DNA of 42,880 nt, taken from contig JAFUXL010000017.1 in the NCBI GenBank assembly GCA_017470905.1, positions 1 to 42,880 on the forward strand, read 5' to 3'. The stretch's first letter is position 1. Every line of letters begins with the position of its first letter. The notes beneath the pieces were generated by a model that had not been told where the DNA came from, made no database searches, and saw only the letters and a program-made list of their open reading frames with translations. This stretch comes from Ruminococcus sp. GTDB taxonomy: Bacteria > Bacillota > Clostridia > Oscillospirales > Ruminococcaceae. Below are positions 22,168 to 38,641 of the stretch, in pieces. The translations under genes were made by a program, and so were the position numbers.

Positions 22168-25100
22168 TTACTGATTGTTATATGTTACCCACTGATAACG
22201 TGCAGTAAGGGGAGTATTTCCGTCAAAGGGACTGAGCCATTCGTCAACACCTGTACCCGGCCATGTGTTCATCATAATTCTGCCCTTGGTTGAGGGGATA
22301 TTGTCGTTTGCGGTATAAACTGCCTTTCCGTCAACGTACCATGTGATATGGTCGGGCTGCCAGTCAAATCCATAGGTGTGATAAGACTCCGATGCATCAA
22401 AGCCGAGGTCATACATATACTCATGGTTGCCCTTGCTGTCGGTGTAGTAATTGAACTGAACCCTTGTTGTATCCTTGCCGAGAATTTCAATATCTATCTC
22501 GTCCCAGGGATTATTTTCGGAGGGACCCGTGTATGTGAAGAACGATGAAACAACACCGTCATTCCTGATAGCCTGCATTGAAGTTTCGTAGTATCCGTAG
22601 CCGTATGTATCGGCGGTTCTGTACTCTGCACCGGAATAATTATACTTGCCCGAATGGTCTTTGTCTATCGTGAGACTGAGAACTCCGTCTGCGAACGATG
22701 TATTCTGCTTATACCAGCCGCAGTCGAAACAGCTTCCGTTAGTCCAGCCGTCAGATGCGAAGAATAAAGGAGTTTCGCCCTTTGTGAAGTCTGCAACTGC
22801 CGTAGCGTTTGCATTCATGGGAGTGCCGAGGTCGGGTATTCCGTTCTTATCCGCAGCAGGAGGAGCTGTCGTAGTCTGTTCTGTGGGAGGAGTTATCGTC
22901 GGGTCGCCGTTGAGATAAGACTCAGGAAGCTTGTCAATTGCCTTTGCATCGTATTTCTGTATCGAGAGAGCGTCCTTGCCTGTGATACCGCTGCCGTTCT
23001 CGAAAACATCTCCCTGCATCATGCCCTTGTATTCAAGGGGATATTTCGAGCTGTTTGCAAGATACTGGAGAATAGCAACCGCATCAGAGATAGTTACCTT
23101 GTTGTCGCAGTTTGCATCGCCCCAGAGGAAATCGCCCGACGGATTAACGTCCGCAATTGTGGTTGTGGTTGTAACAGCATCAGCAGGAGCAGAAGTGGTG
23201 GTCGTCTGTCCTTCAACCGGCTGAGGGTCGGGAATATCCGCATTTTCGTCCGTGAGCGTGAGGAGATATGTAAGGGGTGAATTCCAGTAGATGGTTATTT
23301 CATTTGTCGAATAGCTTTCGGAATTGTCAACATAACGCTTTGCTGAGGGCAAATCCTGACAATAAGCCTTAGCTGCGCTGTCCTCAAGATTGGAGTTTAC
23401 ACCGCCTACGAGCATACCTCTCATAGCCTCGCCCTTAGCCATTGAGGGACGGTGGTGGGGATTTTCGGGGGAAACCGTGCCGAAGCCTGTAACGAAGCAG
23501 GTGCTTACGGGGTTCGTTCCGAGGAGATAATCAAGCTGTGCGTCAGCGGCATTGAGATATGAGCTGTCGCCAGTGAGCTGATAGGCAAGACCGAGGATTA
23601 TACCTGCATTTGCAACGGTCATATTGCTGCCCCAGTCAAATTTACTGAGTGCAACACCGTAGGATGAATTTCCCGAAGCGGTTCTGAACTTGTCAGCCTG
23701 TGAGATAACCGCACTCTTTGCGCTGGTGTAAACCGATGACTCAACATCAGCACTGGGGTCTGTGAGGATAGCTATATTGCCGTAATCGCCTACTGTTGCC
23801 CAGTCAAGACCCTTTGAAGCAGAGCCGAGAGCATTGAGATACTTTGAATTTTTTGTAGCACGGTAGAGCTGTGCGGCAGCCCAGTAGCGTTCGTCCTTAT
23901 CGGACTTGTCGCCGTATTCGCCCGTAACTATGTCTTCGGGGTTCTGGAATACGAGGTTGGGGTTCTGTTCGAGCCAAGCCCATGCCTTTTCCGCACGGGC
24001 GAGACAGTCGTCTGCGAAAGTCTTGTCTATATCCTTATAAAATTCATATGCAAGAGCCATTGATGCGGCAAAATCCGCTGTAGCCGTTGATGATACGGGG
24101 GTAACGATAAGGGGCTTTGTCTCCTCTTCGGGCATAACATATCCGGGGAAGGTATCACAGCTTACCTTATGGTAAACACCGCCGTCTGAAGCCTGCATTT
24201 TCTTCATCCATTCGAGTTCAAAGCGAGCCTCATCGAGAATATCGGGAGTACCGTTTCCGCTTTCGGGGATACCTATGCTGTCGCTGTAAGCATTGGGATT
24301 TGTCTGATATGCATAGAGCAAATCCGCAACAGCCTTTGCCGCAGGGACTACATAACGTCCGAAGTCGCCTGCATCGTGCCAGCCGCCGCTTACGTCAATC
24401 TGTTCGCCCGTGCCGTAAACCGTAGCCACAGTGTTATGGCATACACCGTGCCCGAATGTGCTGTCATGCACTTCAACGCCGCACCTCTGAAGATATAACA
24501 TTCTCACACTGTCATCGAGGAGGTTATTGTAAACATCGTCACCGATTTCAAAGGTATACGAGGGGTCGAGATTACCGCATTTTATGTAATATTTTCCTGC
24601 GTCCGTGACTGCGGAAAAATCGCCCGTATAATTCGTCTCGTCAGCGGAGGAATTGACCGTTTTATTTTCGAGCGTACCCGTGTATACGGTCTGACCCGAT
24701 GCCGCATTTATAACGGAAAATTCGGTTTCGCTTGTTATGTCACGGAATACTGCTGTTTTCCTGCTGTCGGGCTTATAGCCTATCTGGTTGAGATTTATCG
24801 AAGGGGCATAGGGTCTTGATGCCGCATAATCAACATTGCTGTCGTCAACGAGTTCAAGCGATACGTTGTCGAGGAATATCTTGTGTTCGGGGAGTTCGCC
24901 CTCGTGCTTTTCCTGAATACCGCAGTTGAACACGAGCTTTGCCATTATATCGGTTTCTTCCTCCATGGTAAATTCATAATCAACAGTCTGGGGAGTTGAA
25001 GTGAGTTCAAGACCCTTCCATGTGTAAGCCTGATAAGTTCCGCCGTTCTGCTGTATCATGCATTCGATGAAGCGGTCTGTGGTGGAGGATATGTCATATT

Positions 25101-25398
25101 TAAGTCTGTAAACGCCGTTCTGATAAAGGGGTACAATGTCGTAGAACACCTGTACGGCATAGTTTACCTTTCCGACATTGCTTACGGTAAGGGCAAGCTG
25201 ACCGTTTTCTGTGGAAAGCGAACAAGCACCGCCGCTTTCCTTGTAAGTACCCCAGCCCGAAATACCGCTTTCAAAGGTGGAGTTGCTGATGATGTTTCCT
25301 GCTGCGTAAACGGGCGCATAGGACACGGGCAGAGCCGAAGCAATCATCGTCACAGCTGCGATTGAAGCGGCTATTTTCTTAAATGTTTTCCTGTTCAT
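22168..25398 (-). CDS. Cellulosomal multidomain glucanase: CBM4-GH9-dockerin-GH16
   Basis: 1076 residues. Signal peptide 1-33; CBM4_9 about 34-185; Ig-like (CelD_N) about 200-285; GH9 about 290-715 with catalytic G-G-W-H-D-A-G-D-F (Asp342, Asp345), N-P-H-H-R-P-S (646-652) and acid Glu700 in S-T-N-E-I-T-I. A Thr-rich linker follows, then a dockerin (about 758-832, G-D-A-N-C-D-N-K-V-T and I-T-G-K-D-A-L). A second Thr/Pro linker leads to a C-terminal GH16 domain (about 865-1076) with D-E-I-D-I-E (Glu967, Asp969, Glu971). GH9 cleaves cellulose and GH16 mixed-linkage beta-1,3-1,4-glucan, so one chain attacks both, held in the cellulosome by the internal dockerin. SD GAGAGGA. No convincing promoter is seen upstream. 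Confidence 0.95.
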   Translation of the reverse strand: MNRKTFKKIAASIAAVTMIASALPVSYAPVYAAGNIISNSTFESGISGWGTYKESGGACSLSTENGQLALTVSNVGKVNYAVQVFYDIVPLYQNGVYRLKYDISSTTDRFIECMIQQNGGTYQAYTWKGLELTSTPQTVDYEFTMEEETDIMAKLVFNCGIQEKHEGELPEHKIFLDNVSLELVDDSNVDYAASRPYAPSINLNQIGYKPDSRKTAVFRDITSETEFSVINAASGQTVYTGTLENKTVNSSADETNYTGDFSAVTDAGKYYIKCGNLDPSYTFEIGDDVYNNLLDDSVRMLYLQRCGVEVHDSTFGHGVCHNTVATVYGTGEQIDVSGGWHDAGDFGRYVVPAAKAVADLLYAYQTNPNAYSDSIGIPESGNGTPDILDEARFELEWMKKMQASDGGVYHKVSCDTFPGYVMPEEETKPLIVTPVSSTATADFAASMALAYEFYKDIDKTFADDCLARAEKAWAWLEQNPNLVFQNPEDIVTGEYGDKSDKDERYWAAAQLYRATKNSKYLNALGSASKGLDWATVGDYGNIAILTDPSADVESSVYTSAKSAVISQADKFRTASGNSSYGVALSKFDWGSNMTVANAGIILGLAYQLTGDSSYLNAADAQLDYLLGTNPVSTCFVTGFGTVSPENPHHRPSMAKGEAMRGMLVGGVNSNLEDSAAKAYCQDLPSAKRYVDNSESYSTNEITIYWNSPLTYLLTLTDENADIPDPQPVEGQTTTTSAPADAVTTTTTIADVNPSGDFLWGDANCDNKVTISDAVAILQYLANSSKYPLEYKGMMQGDVFENGSGITGKDALSIQKYDAKAIDKLPESYLNGDPTITPPTEQTTTAPPAADKNGIPDLGTPMNANATAVADFTKGETPLFFASDGWTNGSCFDCGWYKQNTSFADGVLSLTIDKDHSGKYNYSGAEYRTADTYGYGYYETSMQAIRNDGVVSSFFTYTGPSENNPWDEIDIEILGKDTTRVQFNYYTDSKGNHEYMYDLGFDASESYHTYGFDWQPDHITWYVDGKAVYTANDNIPSTKGRIMMNTWPGTGVDEWLSPFDGNTPLTARYQWVTYNNQ

Positions 25399-25691: not shown

Positions 25692-28625
25692 TTATGCTAT
25701 AAGCTTTCTGAGAGCAATCATGTCATAAACATCAATTATTCCGTCATCATTGAGGTCAGCATTTATGTAATCTATTTTTGCATCAGGCATTGCGAGCAGC
25801 CATCTCTGCAAATCAAGCATATCAGCAACACTGACTGTTCCGTCAAGGTTCACATCGCCTCTGTTTACCGTGAGGTCAACTAGTGCTGTGGTAACTGTTG
25901 TAACGGGAGCTTCTGTTGCCGCAGCCGTTGTGGTTGTTGTTGTCGTAATCGTTGTGGTGGTTGTAGTTGTCGTAGTAGTGGTGGTTGTAGTTGTTACTGT
26001 AGTGGTTTCCGTTATGATATTCCAGTCCTGACAGGGGCTGTTCGTGGGCTGCCACTGCTGAACATTTGCGCCACTGTTTTTGGATGCCGCACCGACTTCA
26101 ACAAGACATTTGTCCTTTGATGCGTGAGTGATTATGCTGTAAGAGCCGTCAAGATTTTTGGTAAATCTGAAAAGCTGTGAGCTGTCCTTTGAGGAATATG
26201 CAGCTATATCAATATTGCTGCCGTCGGCACTTCCCTCTGCTTTAAGGGCATAGCCCTCGTCCTGAAGAGAACGTATCCAGTAATAGTTGCCCGAACCGAA
26301 GGCTTTGAGTGTCCATTTCTGGCAGTCGTAGCCGTTTGAACCCCACTGCTGAACATTTGAGCCGTCAGCCATTGAGCCGTTTACAATATCCATTACCATG
26401 CCCGAATTAACATTCTCAAATGTGTAGACATATTTTGTATCCATAGCCGTTCCGGGGTCTGAAACGGATTCAAATATCCAGTCCTGACAGTTCACGCCGT
26501 TGGACTCCCATTCCTGAACGTTTGCGCCCGAGTCCTTGCTTGCGTTTGCGATTTCAACCGTAGAGCCTTCGCCCGAAACCCTTGTGAAGATTTTATAGCT
26601 TCCGTCTGAATTTGCGGCAATCATGAACTGCTGGTTAGTACCGCCGTTGTATTTGTAGATGTCGATATTTGTGCCGTTGTCGGTTTTCTTTCCTGCAACG
26701 TCGAGAACATAAGTGCCGCCGTCACCGACTGCGGAAACGATATAATAATAACCGTCACCCGCACTGCAAAGCTTCCATATGTCGTGTATATCAGTGCCGT
26801 TTGAACCCCACTGCTGAACATTTGCGCCGTTCTGTGCAGATGCGCCCTCAACCTGCATATAAAGACCCGAATTTACATTCTTTATACGGTAGCATGAACC
26901 TTCTGTGAAAGCTGCCGCTGTAGGCTTTGCAGGTGTCATGGGACCGCTGGGAGCTTCGGAATATCCTGCGCTCGGAACTCCTGCCTTTGCAAATCTGAGG
27001 TACATATAATTGTTCTTTGATGTCTGACAGCCGCTGTAATTATTGCAGTAGGTTTTTGCATTGTCTGCGGTAAGCTTTACATAGTCATAATTTGTAGTTG
27101 CTTTCCATGTGCCGACCTTTGCGTATGAGGGATTTGAAGAAGTACCCTGTCCTGCTGTAAGGCGGTTTACCTTGCCCGATGATTTAGAACCGGAGTCGAG
27201 GAAGTATCCGAGGTTCTGGTCTGTAGAAGAGGGAGCGTTCCAGTCGCAGCATACGTTGCCGCTTGTGGAATTGTTCTCATAATAGCAGTTTTCTGCGAAG
27301 ATGTTTGTATTTGCCTGAACGGTATAAGCCATAGAAAATTCGCTTACATAGTTATTCAGACTGTGGTAGTATCCCCAGCGCATAAGTCCGGGCGCACGGG
27401 TAAGTGTTTTATAGAATTTATTGGACGCAAGCGTCATGCGTGGATAGCCGTTATACTGTGAATAATTCTTTGCGCTGCTGTCGGGATAGCCGAGGATAAT
27501 GCCGTATTCGTGAAGTCCGAATGAACAGTCCGAAACTGTGCAGTAATCCGCATAGTAGCAGCAGGCGAGGAATTTGTCCTTATCGCTGACGGAATTATCC
27601 GTACCGTAAGGATTATATCCGCTGTGTCCCGTGAAAGTCACATGGTCAACCCAGAGGTTCTGACCGCCTCTGAAATAAACCATGATATTATCGTTGCCGT
27701 TTGCTTCTGCTGAATGCTGAATATCGAAATTCTTGATTATGACATTGCTGCCGTTGCCCTTGTTTGACTGTTCGGTGGTGAATGCGACATTATTGAGCGT
27801 ATGCGCATTGTAGCTGCCGATAATGGTCTTGTTCGAGGCAACCTGTATTCTGCCGGGAGCAGTATATTTCTGACCGAGGCTGTCCTTGGAGAAGCTGTTG
27901 AGAGAAATATTCTTGGTAACAACGATAGTATAAGGCGTTGTTGACTCGGCATATTTTTTGAGGTCGTCAAAGGTCTGGACTTCGACTACCTGTCCGAAGA
28001 GACCGCCTATGTCACCTGCCTTGATATTATTCGTGTTGTCGTTTTTGCAGTAGCCTGCGAAGCCCTGCAAGCCGTCTGTATTGAGCAGCCACAGCTGATT
28101 GTCCGCACCCGTATAATTTGCGAGTGTCATTCCCGAATTTCCCTGTGTGAGAGCGAGGGAGGTATCGGAATAATTCACTATTTTGTAATAGAGATTATTT
28201 CCGAGGTGGTCGGTCTTGACGGGTACTACATACCAGTGCTGTGTCTTATCGGACTCACTGCCGTAGATTATAACGTCCGTACCTGCCGAAACGCTGTAAT
28301 TATTGGGGGTAAGCAGTCTGCCCGACTGAGCGTTTATGATTTTGAAGAAAGTACCTTTCGAGTCGCTGCCAACCCAATCAAAATGCCATGAGGGGGAGAG
28401 GTCGTTTCCGATAGCCTTTACGGAGAGGGCTGAACCATCAGTCGTACCGTTTTCCGTGAGGACTTTGGAATTGTCCTTTGTGGCAATATTCATGAGCTGT
28501 GCGGGATAGTCCGTGGATATTGCCGATGCGGTCATGCCTGACGTGCCGAAGAGAGGGAGCAGCCACGATACGAGCATGACCAGCGACAGGACGACAGCCT
28601 GCCGCATAAGAGAAACCTTTTTCAT
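25692..28625 (-). CDS. Cellulosomal pectate lyase: RICIN/CBM13-PL1-CBM13 pair-dockerin
   Basis: 977 residues. Signal peptide 1-36; an N-terminal ricin-B-like (CBM13) region about 40-185; PL1 right-handed beta-helix about 194-545 with N-L-W-V-D-H-V-T-F (323-331) and the Arg-containing R-A-P-G-L-M-R-W-G-Y-Y-H. Two further ricin-B-like domains (about 575-885) show repeated Q-x-W motifs (V-Q-Q-W, C-Q-D-W). A linker of more than 20 Thr follows, then a dockerin (about 925-977, G-D-V-N-L-D-G-T-V and A-D-L-N-D-D-G-I-I). It beta-eliminates polygalacturonate with Ca2+, and the CBM13 domains bind side-chain sugars. The dockerin links it to a scaffoldin. SD AAGGAGG and a consensus promoter support the start. 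Confidence 0.93.
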   Translation of the reverse strand: MKKVSLMRQAVVLSLVMLVSWLLPLFGTSGMTASAISTDYPAQLMNIATKDNSKVLTENGTTDGSALSVKAIGNDLSPSWHFDWVGSDSKGTFFKIINAQSGRLLTPNNYSVSAGTDVIIYGSESDKTQHWYVVPVKTDHLGNNLYYKIVNYSDTSLALTQGNSGMTLANYTGADNQLWLLNTDGLQGFAGYCKNDNTNNIKAGDIGGLFGQVVEVQTFDDLKKYAESTTPYTIVVTKNISLNSFSKDSLGQKYTAPGRIQVASNKTIIGSYNAHTLNNVAFTTEQSNKGNGSNVIIKNFDIQHSAEANGNDNIMVYFRGGQNLWVDHVTFTGHSGYNPYGTDNSVSDKDKFLACCYYADYCTVSDCSFGLHEYGIILGYPDSSAKNYSQYNGYPRMTLASNKFYKTLTRAPGLMRWGYYHSLNNYVSEFSMAYTVQANTNIFAENCYYENNSTSGNVCCDWNAPSSTDQNLGYFLDSGSKSSGKVNRLTAGQGTSSNPSYAKVGTWKATTNYDYVKLTADNAKTYCNNYSGCQTSKNNYMYLRFAKAGVPSAGYSEAPSGPMTPAKPTAAAFTEGSCYRIKNVNSGLYMQVEGASAQNGANVQQWGSNGTDIHDIWKLCSAGDGYYYIVSAVGDGGTYVLDVAGKKTDNGTNIDIYKYNGGTNQQFMIAANSDGSYKIFTRVSGEGSTVEIANASKDSGANVQEWESNGVNCQDWIFESVSDPGTAMDTKYVYTFENVNSGMVMDIVNGSMADGSNVQQWGSNGYDCQKWTLKAFGSGNYYWIRSLQDEGYALKAEGSADGSNIDIAAYSSKDSSQLFRFTKNLDGSYSIITHASKDKCLVEVGAASKNSGANVQQWQPTNSPCQDWNIITETTTVTTTTTTTTTTTTTTTITTTTTTTAAATEAPVTTVTTALVDLTVNRGDVNLDGTVSVADMLDLQRWLLAMPDAKIDYINADLNDDGIIDVYDMIALRKLIA

Positions 28626-36240: not shown

Positions 36241-36476
36241 GCCTGCGGCAATTCAGGGGGCTTGGGGGAAAAGCCGCCGCCTTGCCGCAAACGAGCGAAC
36301 GACAGTGAGTGAGTGCGGCAAGACAAAAAGCGGCTGTGTTCCCCCATTCAAGATATTAAATCGCCTGCGGCAATTCAGAGGGCTTGGGGGAAAAGCCGCC
36401 GCCTTGCCGCAAACGATCGAACGACAGTGAGTGAGTGCGGCAAGACAAAAAGCGGCGGCGTTCCCCCATTCAAGAT
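36241..36476. repeat. Two tandem copies (period 122 bp) of a palindromic GC-rich element
   Basis: Copy 1 starts at 36241 and copy 2 at 36363. They are about 114 bases each, with only a handful of substitutions. Each folds end to end: GGGGG with CCCCC, GCCGCCGC with GCGGCGGC (imperfect in copy 1), CTTGCCGCA with TGCGGCAAG. The GC content stands out from the AT-rich flanks. The second copy ends 11 bases before the pullulanase start. Confidence 0.85.
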
Positions 36477-36487
36477 AAGGAGCAAGT

Positions 36488-38641
36488 ATGAAAATAGAGT
36501 ATATTCATGAGCCTACGGACTTGCAGTGCGGTCAGGCTGTAATCGCTATGATAACGGGCAGAAGCACAGACGATGTAATAAAGCTTTTAAACAATGACAG
36601 AGAAACCGACTTGAAGGATATGAAAAATGCCCTTAAATATTACGGCTTTGAAGTATCGGATATGAAAACCCCTGTTCACGACAAGTCACAGCTCCCCGAT
36701 TTATGCATGCTAAGTATTGAAACTCCACGCTGCTGGCACTGGTCATTGTATCATGACGGAATATTCTATGACCCCGAACACGGAGTACTTGACGATTTCC
36801 CTGTATCGGGACGGAAATATTTCTGGGAGATAAAAAGAATATCCGATAAATCCTTTGCGAAAGCCGACAGGAAATATTATTACGGCGGCGAACTCGGTGC
36901 GATATATTCAAAGGAAAAAACGGTCTTTCGTACATGGTCTCCATATGCGGAGAGTATAAAATTAAATCTATATACCGACTGTATTTGCGATGATTTTATA
37001 TCCTGTCCCATGAAAAATACGGGGAACGTATGGGAAACCGAAATAAAAGGCGATTTTGAGGGCTTCTATTATACCTATACCGTAAGAATTTACGGCACCG
37101 AGCATGAAACCATTGATATATACGCAAAATCCGCAGGAGTGAACGGAAAGCGTGGAATGATATTCGACAGCAAAAAGACCAATCCCGAAAACTGGGATAA
37201 GTCCTCCCCTGTCGTTCTTGAAAATTATAACGATGCAGTGATATATGAAATGCACATAAGGGATTTTTCAACGGATATTTCGGGAGATTTCAGATACAGA
37301 GGGAAATTTCTGTCATTCTGCGAGGACAACGAAAGGCTTGATTATATAAAATCGCTCGGTATAACTCATATACACCTTCTGCCCGTCATGGATTTCGCCT
37401 CGGTCGATGAAGCCAACCCGTCATTCAACTGGGGATACGACCCTCTGAATTATAATATCCCGGAGGGTTCGTATTCGACAGACCCCTTTGACGGCAGAAA
37501 AAGAGTTAAAGAATTAAAAGAATTAATCCTGTCCGCCCACAAAAAAAATCTCGGAATAATCCTCGATGTAGTCTATAACCATACATTTTCCGCCGAAAAT
37601 TCGCCATTTTTCAAAATTTTTCCGCATTATTTCCACAGACACGATGAAAACGGATTTTCAAACGGTTCGGGCTGCGGAAACGAAATCGCCACGGAAAGAC
37701 TCATGATGCGCAGATTTATATGCGACAGCCTTTGCTATATCGCAGAGGAATATAAAATTGACGGCTTCAGGTTCGATTTAATGGGGCTTATGGATATAAA
37801 AACTTTGAATTTGTGCGCCGAAAGACTTAAGCTTATAAATCCGAATATCATTCTCTACGGCGAGGGCTGGACGGGAGGTATTTCTTCACTTGACGAGAAA
37901 TTCAGAGCCATGCAGAAAAATGCAGGCCTGCTCCCCGATTTTGCGATGTTTTCGGACTATATAAGAGATACGGTAAAGGGCAGCGTTTTCAATGATTTGG
38001 ACACGGGATATGTAAACGGAAACCATATCGGAGCATATGAGCGCATGAAGTCAGCCCTCTGCGGAAATACCGGTTATATGCCGATAAATTATGTCGAATG
38101 TCACGATAATCTTACATTTTACGATAAGCTGAAAATTTCAATGCCCTGTGCGGACGAAGATGATATTATTTCAGCCGATAAAATGGGGGCGGCAATTATT
38201 ATCTTATCGCAGGGCATACCGTTCATTCAGGCAGGGCAGGAATTTCTGCGCAGCAAGCCGACTGACGGCGGATACGAGCATAACAGCTACAAATCCCCCG
38301 ACAGCGTAAACTCGATAAAATGGGATAATCTGACGAAATACAGGGATATATCTGATTATTACAGGGGGCTTTTCGCCATAAGAAAAAAATATCCCTGTTT
38401 CCGCAGAGCAGATAAAATAAATTTCAGAGACACGGACAACGGCATTATAATCATGAATACAGGTAATTTTATTTTTATAATCAATCCCACGGACGGAGAT
38501 TTTGAGATAAATATCGGCGGCGAAATCCTTGCGGACAAGCACAAAGCCTCGGATATGCCTGTTTATGTCACGGAAAATAATTCAATATGCGAAAGAAAGG
38601 GCATAATTCTTATCCATCTGACTGCACAAAAAAATAAATAA
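36488..38641 (+). CDS. Type I pullulanase (GH13) with N-terminal C39-like cysteine-peptidase domain
   Basis: 717 residues, no signal peptide, so cytoplasmic. Residues 1-115 look like a C39-like papain-fold domain: D-L-Q-C-G-Q-A-V-I-A-M-I-T-G with Cys14, C-W-H-W-S-L-Y-H-D-G with His84, and F-Y-D-P with Asp95. A CBM48-like region (about 130-240) follows, then the GH13 barrel with F-N-W-G-Y-D-P (pullulanase type I signature), D-V-V-Y-N-H, G-F-R-F-D (nucleophile Asp430), Y-G-E-G-W (acid Glu459) and V-E-C-H-D-N (Asp540). It debranches alpha-1,6 links of glycogen, starch or maltodextrins. The frame is continuous across the fusion, and the start has SD AAGGAG. The peptidase-like half is unexpected for a pullulanase. 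Confidence 0.88.
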   Translation: MKIEYIHEPTDLQCGQAVIAMITGRSTDDVIKLLNNDRETDLKDMKNALKYYGFEVSDMKTPVHDKSQLPDLCMLSIETPRCWHWSLYHDGIFYDPEHGVLDDFPVSGRKYFWEIKRISDKSFAKADRKYYYGGELGAIYSKEKTVFRTWSPYAESIKLNLYTDCICDDFISCPMKNTGNVWETEIKGDFEGFYYTYTVRIYGTEHETIDIYAKSAGVNGKRGMIFDSKKTNPENWDKSSPVVLENYNDAVIYEMHIRDFSTDISGDFRYRGKFLSFCEDNERLDYIKSLGITHIHLLPVMDFASVDEANPSFNWGYDPLNYNIPEGSYSTDPFDGRKRVKELKELILSAHKKNLGIILDVVYNHTFSAENSPFFKIFPHYFHRHDENGFSNGSGCGNEIATERLMMRRFICDSLCYIAEEYKIDGFRFDLMGLMDIKTLNLCAERLKLINPNIILYGEGWTGGISSLDEKFRAMQKNAGLLPDFAMFSDYIRDTVKGSVFNDLDTGYVNGNHIGAYERMKSALCGNTGYMPINYVECHDNLTFYDKLKISMPCADEDDIISADKMGAAIIILSQGIPFIQAGQEFLRSKPTDGGYEHNSYKSPDSVNSIKWDNLTKYRDISDYYRGLFAIRKKYPCFRRADKINFRDTDNGIIIMNTGNFIFIINPTDGDFEINIGGEILADKHKASDMPVYVTENNSICERKGIILIHLTAQKNK

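Follow-up and report, generated by a model that had tools for sequence, protein, structure and literature searches.

We analysed positions 1 to 42,880 of contig JAFUXL010000017.1 (assembly GCA_017470905.1) from Ruminococcus sp., a member of the Ruminococcaceae (Bacillota); this whole stretch of 42,880 nucleotides is called the window below. Its open reading frame (ORF) at positions 36488–38641 on the forward strand encodes a protein of 717 residues, in which a C39-like domain precedes a type I pullulanase. The ATG start is preceded by AAGGAG. The features of the fused gene are listed below, where E-type copies are those homologues of the domain that carry Glu at position 8.

36477..36482, +, Shine-Dalgarno-like AAGGAG, read in the sequence
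36488..36838, +, C39-like domain, residues 1–117, homologue of a stand-alone protein family
36509..36511, +, Glu8 at the position of the oxyanion Gln (Cys minus 6), in 70/70 E-type copies; placed against PCAT1 Q15 and LahT Q21 by end-point offsets of the structural alignments
36527..36529, +, Cys14, predicted nucleophile, in 70/70 E-type copies
36737..36739, +, His84, predicted general base, with invariant Cys82 two residues earlier, both in 69/69 readable E-type copies
36770..36772, +, Asp95, third triad residue, in 69/69 readable E-type copies
36848..36874, +, linker, residues 121–129, predicted flexible (pLDDT < 50 in the full-length model)
36857..38641, +, type I pullulanase part (CBM48 + GH13), residues 124–717 plus stop, from profile matches and alignment to unfused pullulanases

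The original prediction assigned a C39-like papain fold to the N-terminal part, and structure modelling agrees, since the predicted fold matches solved C39 domains. The Pfam model Peptidase_C39 (PF03412) matched it below threshold (E 0.057, 13.7 bits vs a gathering score of 22). The pullulanase model TIGR02104 matched from residue 126 on (E 1.5e-185, 617.8 bits vs a cut-off of 504.5). Both CBM48 and GH13 were detected in this part, which also contains, as read by eye, what we take to be the GH13 catalytic motifs. The likeness to known type I pullulanases such as AmyX (2e8y) thus covers the whole CBM48 plus GH13 enzyme, while the N-terminal C39-like domain is an addition. The pullulanase part is 53–56% identical to unfused pullulanases of the genus. 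These begin with a FDEIDEKYYYGG-like N-terminus, whereas the window fusion reads FAKADRKYYYGG at that point, so that two complete genes appear to have been joined end to end with about 5 extra residues. Codons 87–175 of the fused ORF contain no in-frame start codon, so the pullulanase part lacks a separate start close to the junction. In the full-length structure model (predicted template modelling score 0.77), the predicted local distance difference test (pLDDT) value falls below 50 at residues 121–129, which suggests a flexible tether between the two parts. No signal peptide was seen by eye on the fused protein.

The 75 distinct copies of the domain that were fetched comprise 70 of E type (including the short fragment L139), 4 cousins with Gln at the same position and 1 with a broken frame. 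The predicted triad of Cys14, His84 and Asp95 lies exactly where it had been placed, and the expectation that Cys14 and His84 would be kept in homologues is confirmed by fused and stand-alone copies alike: Cys14 is present in all 70 E-type copies, and His84 and Asp95 in all 69 that are readable, completing the Cys-His-Asp triad. Arg81 and Cys82 are likewise found in 69/69. Six residues before the Cys, where C39 enzymes have the oxyanion Gln, Glu8 occurs in 70/70, while Gln stands there in 4/4 readable divergent cousins and in a Bacillus phage protein. The cousins are 30–36% identical to the window domain and the phage protein 28%. Arg81, Cys82, His98 and Arg109 are common to the E-type copies and absent from the 4 cousins, save for His98 in one; in one cousin Asp95 is replaced by Cys. 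A conserved arginine, Arg81 or Arg109, may be the pairing partner of Glu8.

A search with the domain matched 40/297 genomes of the bacterial family, of which 35 carry the window subfamily (≥53% identity), 4 only a divergent cousin and 1 only a fragment. Within the genus, 61/100 genomes matched (sequence read in 37; the other 24 by score and open-frame length only), and in a sample of the phylum 2/398, both within the bacterial family. Apart from the fusions, the copies read (L002–L030, L149–L189) are free-standing proteins of about 115–130 residues. Judged by these sequences, the domain is a homologue of a protein mainly made separately in the bacterial family. The C39-like assignment therefore held for fold and triad, but it had missed the mainly stand-alone protein and the Glu instead of Gln at the oxyanion position.

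The C39 domains of PCAT1, ComA and LahT (PF03412, MEROPS C39) are parts of ATP-binding cassette (ABC) transporters. In contrast, the copies read here stand alone or are fused to pullulanase or SUKH-3, and none is part of a peptide exporter; they differ further from these domains by a score below the Pfam cut-off, Glu for Gln and the lack of a recurrent neighbour. Small phage C39-like proteins, namely the Bacillus phage vB_BcoS-136 protein AYP68191, phrog_4049 and phrog_5845, resemble the domain in size, stand-alone form, CGQ motif, His and DP. AYP68191 is the best viral fold match (E 4e-10) and 32% identical to the stand-alone copy L004 (E 1e-10), but its oxyanion position is still Gln and it has no ETPRCWHW signature. 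The two PHROGs, whose function is unknown, give weak matches (best E 6e-7), with 22 and 17 of 27 members at E ≤ 0.1; set A1 comprises 27 of 32 copies. A PADLOC scan of 27 members for defence systems gave single matches only (E 0.03–0.05), as did NCBIfam (E 0.06–0.1), while PDB searched by sequence returned chance matches only. Pattern matches in viral contigs were not confirmed, and plasmids gave no match. A Klebsiella phage match (H9) was dropped as it runs antisense to annotated genes, and MT835593, 67% identical to L004, was set aside as an unannotated, unverified faecal scaffold that is perhaps host DNA. Neither the fold nor either parent family is new. None of the models in PADLOC, PHROGs, Pfam or NCBIfam names the Glu8 subfamily, and the literature searches made, confined to open-licence PMC, listed no description of a C39–pullulanase fusion. 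In Ruminococcus and its relatives, the analysis delimits a conserved C39-fold subfamily that carries no name so far and that naturally has Glu where C39 peptidases have the oxyanion Gln.

The fusion to pullulanase is real: the same two-domain architecture occurs in L031 (Ruminococcus sp. RGIG7051, sheep rumen) and L032 (Ruminococcus sp. UBA4383), whose fused proteins are 72 and 79% identical to that of the window. These three are 3/61 of the domain-positive genomes of the genus, as judged by open-frame length and matching coordinates. The proposal that pullulanases do not normally carry such a domain was also borne out. The other 78 pullulanase-type loci (L033–L110), some of them cut by contig ends, gave no domain match at E ≤ 1e-3, and only 3 of the 20 pullulanase-bearing genomes among 100 in the genus (E ≤ 1e-60; 18 above the family cut-off) have the fusion. 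In L170 (2254–3114) and L171 (2950–3810) the domain has a different partner, SUKH-3 (PF14433, E 7e-8 and 1.6e-8). In L155 and L157, close relatives of these, a free domain gene occupies the same place between the same upstream gene family and the same RarA-like gene. The two fusion partners are starting points for finding the role of the subfamily. SUKH-3 is an immunity-protein family, and in L171 a SUKH-1 gene lies just upstream of the fusion.

We consider it probable that a small C39-fold protein was captured by fusion to pulA and that it likely continues to act as a thiol hydrolase in the cytosol, without tight coupling of the two halves. A small C39-fold gene would have come to lie directly before pulA in one Ruminococcus lineage, and the two would have been joined end to end, giving a single polypeptide in which a short flexible linker connects them. 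The fused domain would most likely retain its ancestral role in the cytosol, with Cys14 as nucleophile, His84 as base and Asp95 orienting the His, while Glu8 in place of the oxyanion Gln would alter chemistry, pH range or substrate relative to leader peptidases. The pullulanase part would debranch intracellular glycogen beside glycogen phosphorylase. On the simplest reading, the fusion would retain the sole copy of a small useful enzyme. The intact triad argues for thiol catalysis, while Glu8 may argue against ordinary leader-peptidase chemistry. Trees were built without L136 (broken frame) and L139 (22-residue fragment); in an unrooted maximum-likelihood tree of 69 domains, an ultrafast bootstrap value of 99% supports the separation of the fused three from the remaining 66. 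The fusion is under purifying selection: the ratio of nonsynonymous to synonymous substitution rates (dN/dS) among the three fusions is 0.10–0.17 for the domain and 0.11–0.14 for the pullulanase part. The evidence fits one fusion event followed by upkeep of both halves.

Several observations weigh against this explanation. The dN/dS values are rough because dS is 1.1–1.4, near saturation. When a FastTree phylogeny was rooted on the very distant cousins, the three fused domains did not form a clade, which we take as long-branch rooting. Each fused genome yielded a single domain copy, the fused one, but these genomes are 73.75, 93 and 81% complete, so a second copy may lie in the missing DNA. 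When neighbours of the 75 distinct copies (1.5–8 kb flanks) were clustered, no recurrent neighbour emerged, as the largest cluster spans only 10 loci; the larger clusters, which include a RadA-like gene at 9 loci and a RarA-like gene at 7 (named by eye), look like local synteny of close relatives and were rejected as operon partners. Finally, Glu8 may mean that the family is weak or inactive as a peptidase. Roles of the oxyanion Gln are described for PCAT1 Q15 and LahT Q21 in two reports (PMC6363468, PMC6959990). In CvaB, colicin V secretion by the engineered Q26E variant was reported to be halved at 30 °C and abolished at 37 °C (PMC3335142), which is the ground for this concern. The same study reports little effect of Q26A and Q26N, and the Gln of LahT is placed 4.3 Å from the oxyanion (PMC6363468), so the weight of this position is debated and Glu8 may mean less. 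The natural Glu8 is a clear departure from C39 enzymes.

Alternatively, the fusion may have been selected because it couples the halves functionally: the tethered thiol hydrolase would either act on some glycogen-associated protein or regulate the pullulanase. This would agree with the equal constraint on both halves across three diverged genomes and with two glycogen phosphorylases in each of the three, whose presence suggests that the pullulanase probably acts on internal glycogen. It would also agree with the neighbours shared in 3/3, a P-type ATPase gene before and a DUF2079 gene after the fused gene, which argue for a stable locus. However, co-occurrence, analysed for pullulanase alone, is not beyond chance: the domain is present in 15/20 pullulanase-positive and 46/80 pullulanase-negative genomes of the genus (Fisher p 0.20), and among genomes at least 90% complete pullulanase occurs in 9/41 with and 2/14 without the domain (p 0.71). 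SUKH-3 serves as another partner, and 0/20 of the stand-alone-copy neighbourhoods first examined (≤16 kb) have a close pulA, 2 of them having a weak GH13-type match (24–25% identity) about 4 and about 7 kb off. Coupling is therefore unlikely in our estimate, and the role on glycogen suggested by the original prediction is possible but unproven.

It seems distinctly unlikely that the domain is a pseudo-enzyme, using its C39 fold for non-catalytic binding of a peptide or protein as the C39-like domains of HlyB-type transporters do. Those domains are not known to carry the Cys, whereas Cys, His and Asp are invariant here. More speculatively, and in our opinion improbably, the Glu8/ETPRCWHW subfamily may consist of distinct small cytosolic thiol enzymes with non-peptidase chemistry (deamidation, transamidation or small-modifier removal), placed on the glycogen particle by fusion; if true, this would reveal protein-level control of glycogen breakdown. 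Self-processing was proposed earlier; the domain would cut at a double-Gly site near the linker to release the pullulanase. The GG at 133–134 after the linker of the window protein is in its favour, but it is very improbable and was rejected because L031 and L032 have DG and SG there and because GG also stands at the start of unfused pullulanases of the genus.

As a side observation on glycogen genes, two GlgC-like halves share one open frame of 789–798 residues at G716:C91:33840-36134 and G749:C215:1740-4034, so that two of the three genomes with the pullulanase fusion contain another fusion of glycogen genes. The second half scores lower and is possibly GlgD; the window genome has only a weak GlgC match. 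In a same-genus relative (L140, G019:C32:1234-2906), the pullulanase gene is split over two frames, by sequencing error or in reality.

Upstream of the fused gene, the window carries two copies of a dispersed repeat.

36258..36347, +, dispersed hairpin repeat, copy 1, upstream of the fused gene
36380..36469, +, dispersed hairpin repeat, copy 2, in tandem, 122-bp unit

This palindromic element of about 96 nt has two stacked stems, a 3′ bulge and a conserved GTGAACG-type loop, and it is found a short way upstream of the fused gene in 3/3 genomes (L031 5579–5674; L032 3551–3646). Model R1 found at least 149 copies in G000, at least 150 in G716 and at least 103 in G749 at E ≤ 1e-4, lower bounds as 150 candidates were scored per genome, and none among the 150 scored candidates each in same-genus G019 and G135. 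Across 44 copies the stems covary, with 152 cells changed on both sides vs a shuffled mean of 46, in an alignment fitted to the structure. The window copies gave no match in Rfam. Copies are often in tandem, and most of 20 lie between or at the ends of mechanically called ORFs. Elsewhere in the window, a GH9 plus GH16 protein with CBM4_9 (22168–25398) and a pectate lyase with ricin-type lectin repeats and a dockerin (25692–28625) are probably secreted plant-fibre enzymes.
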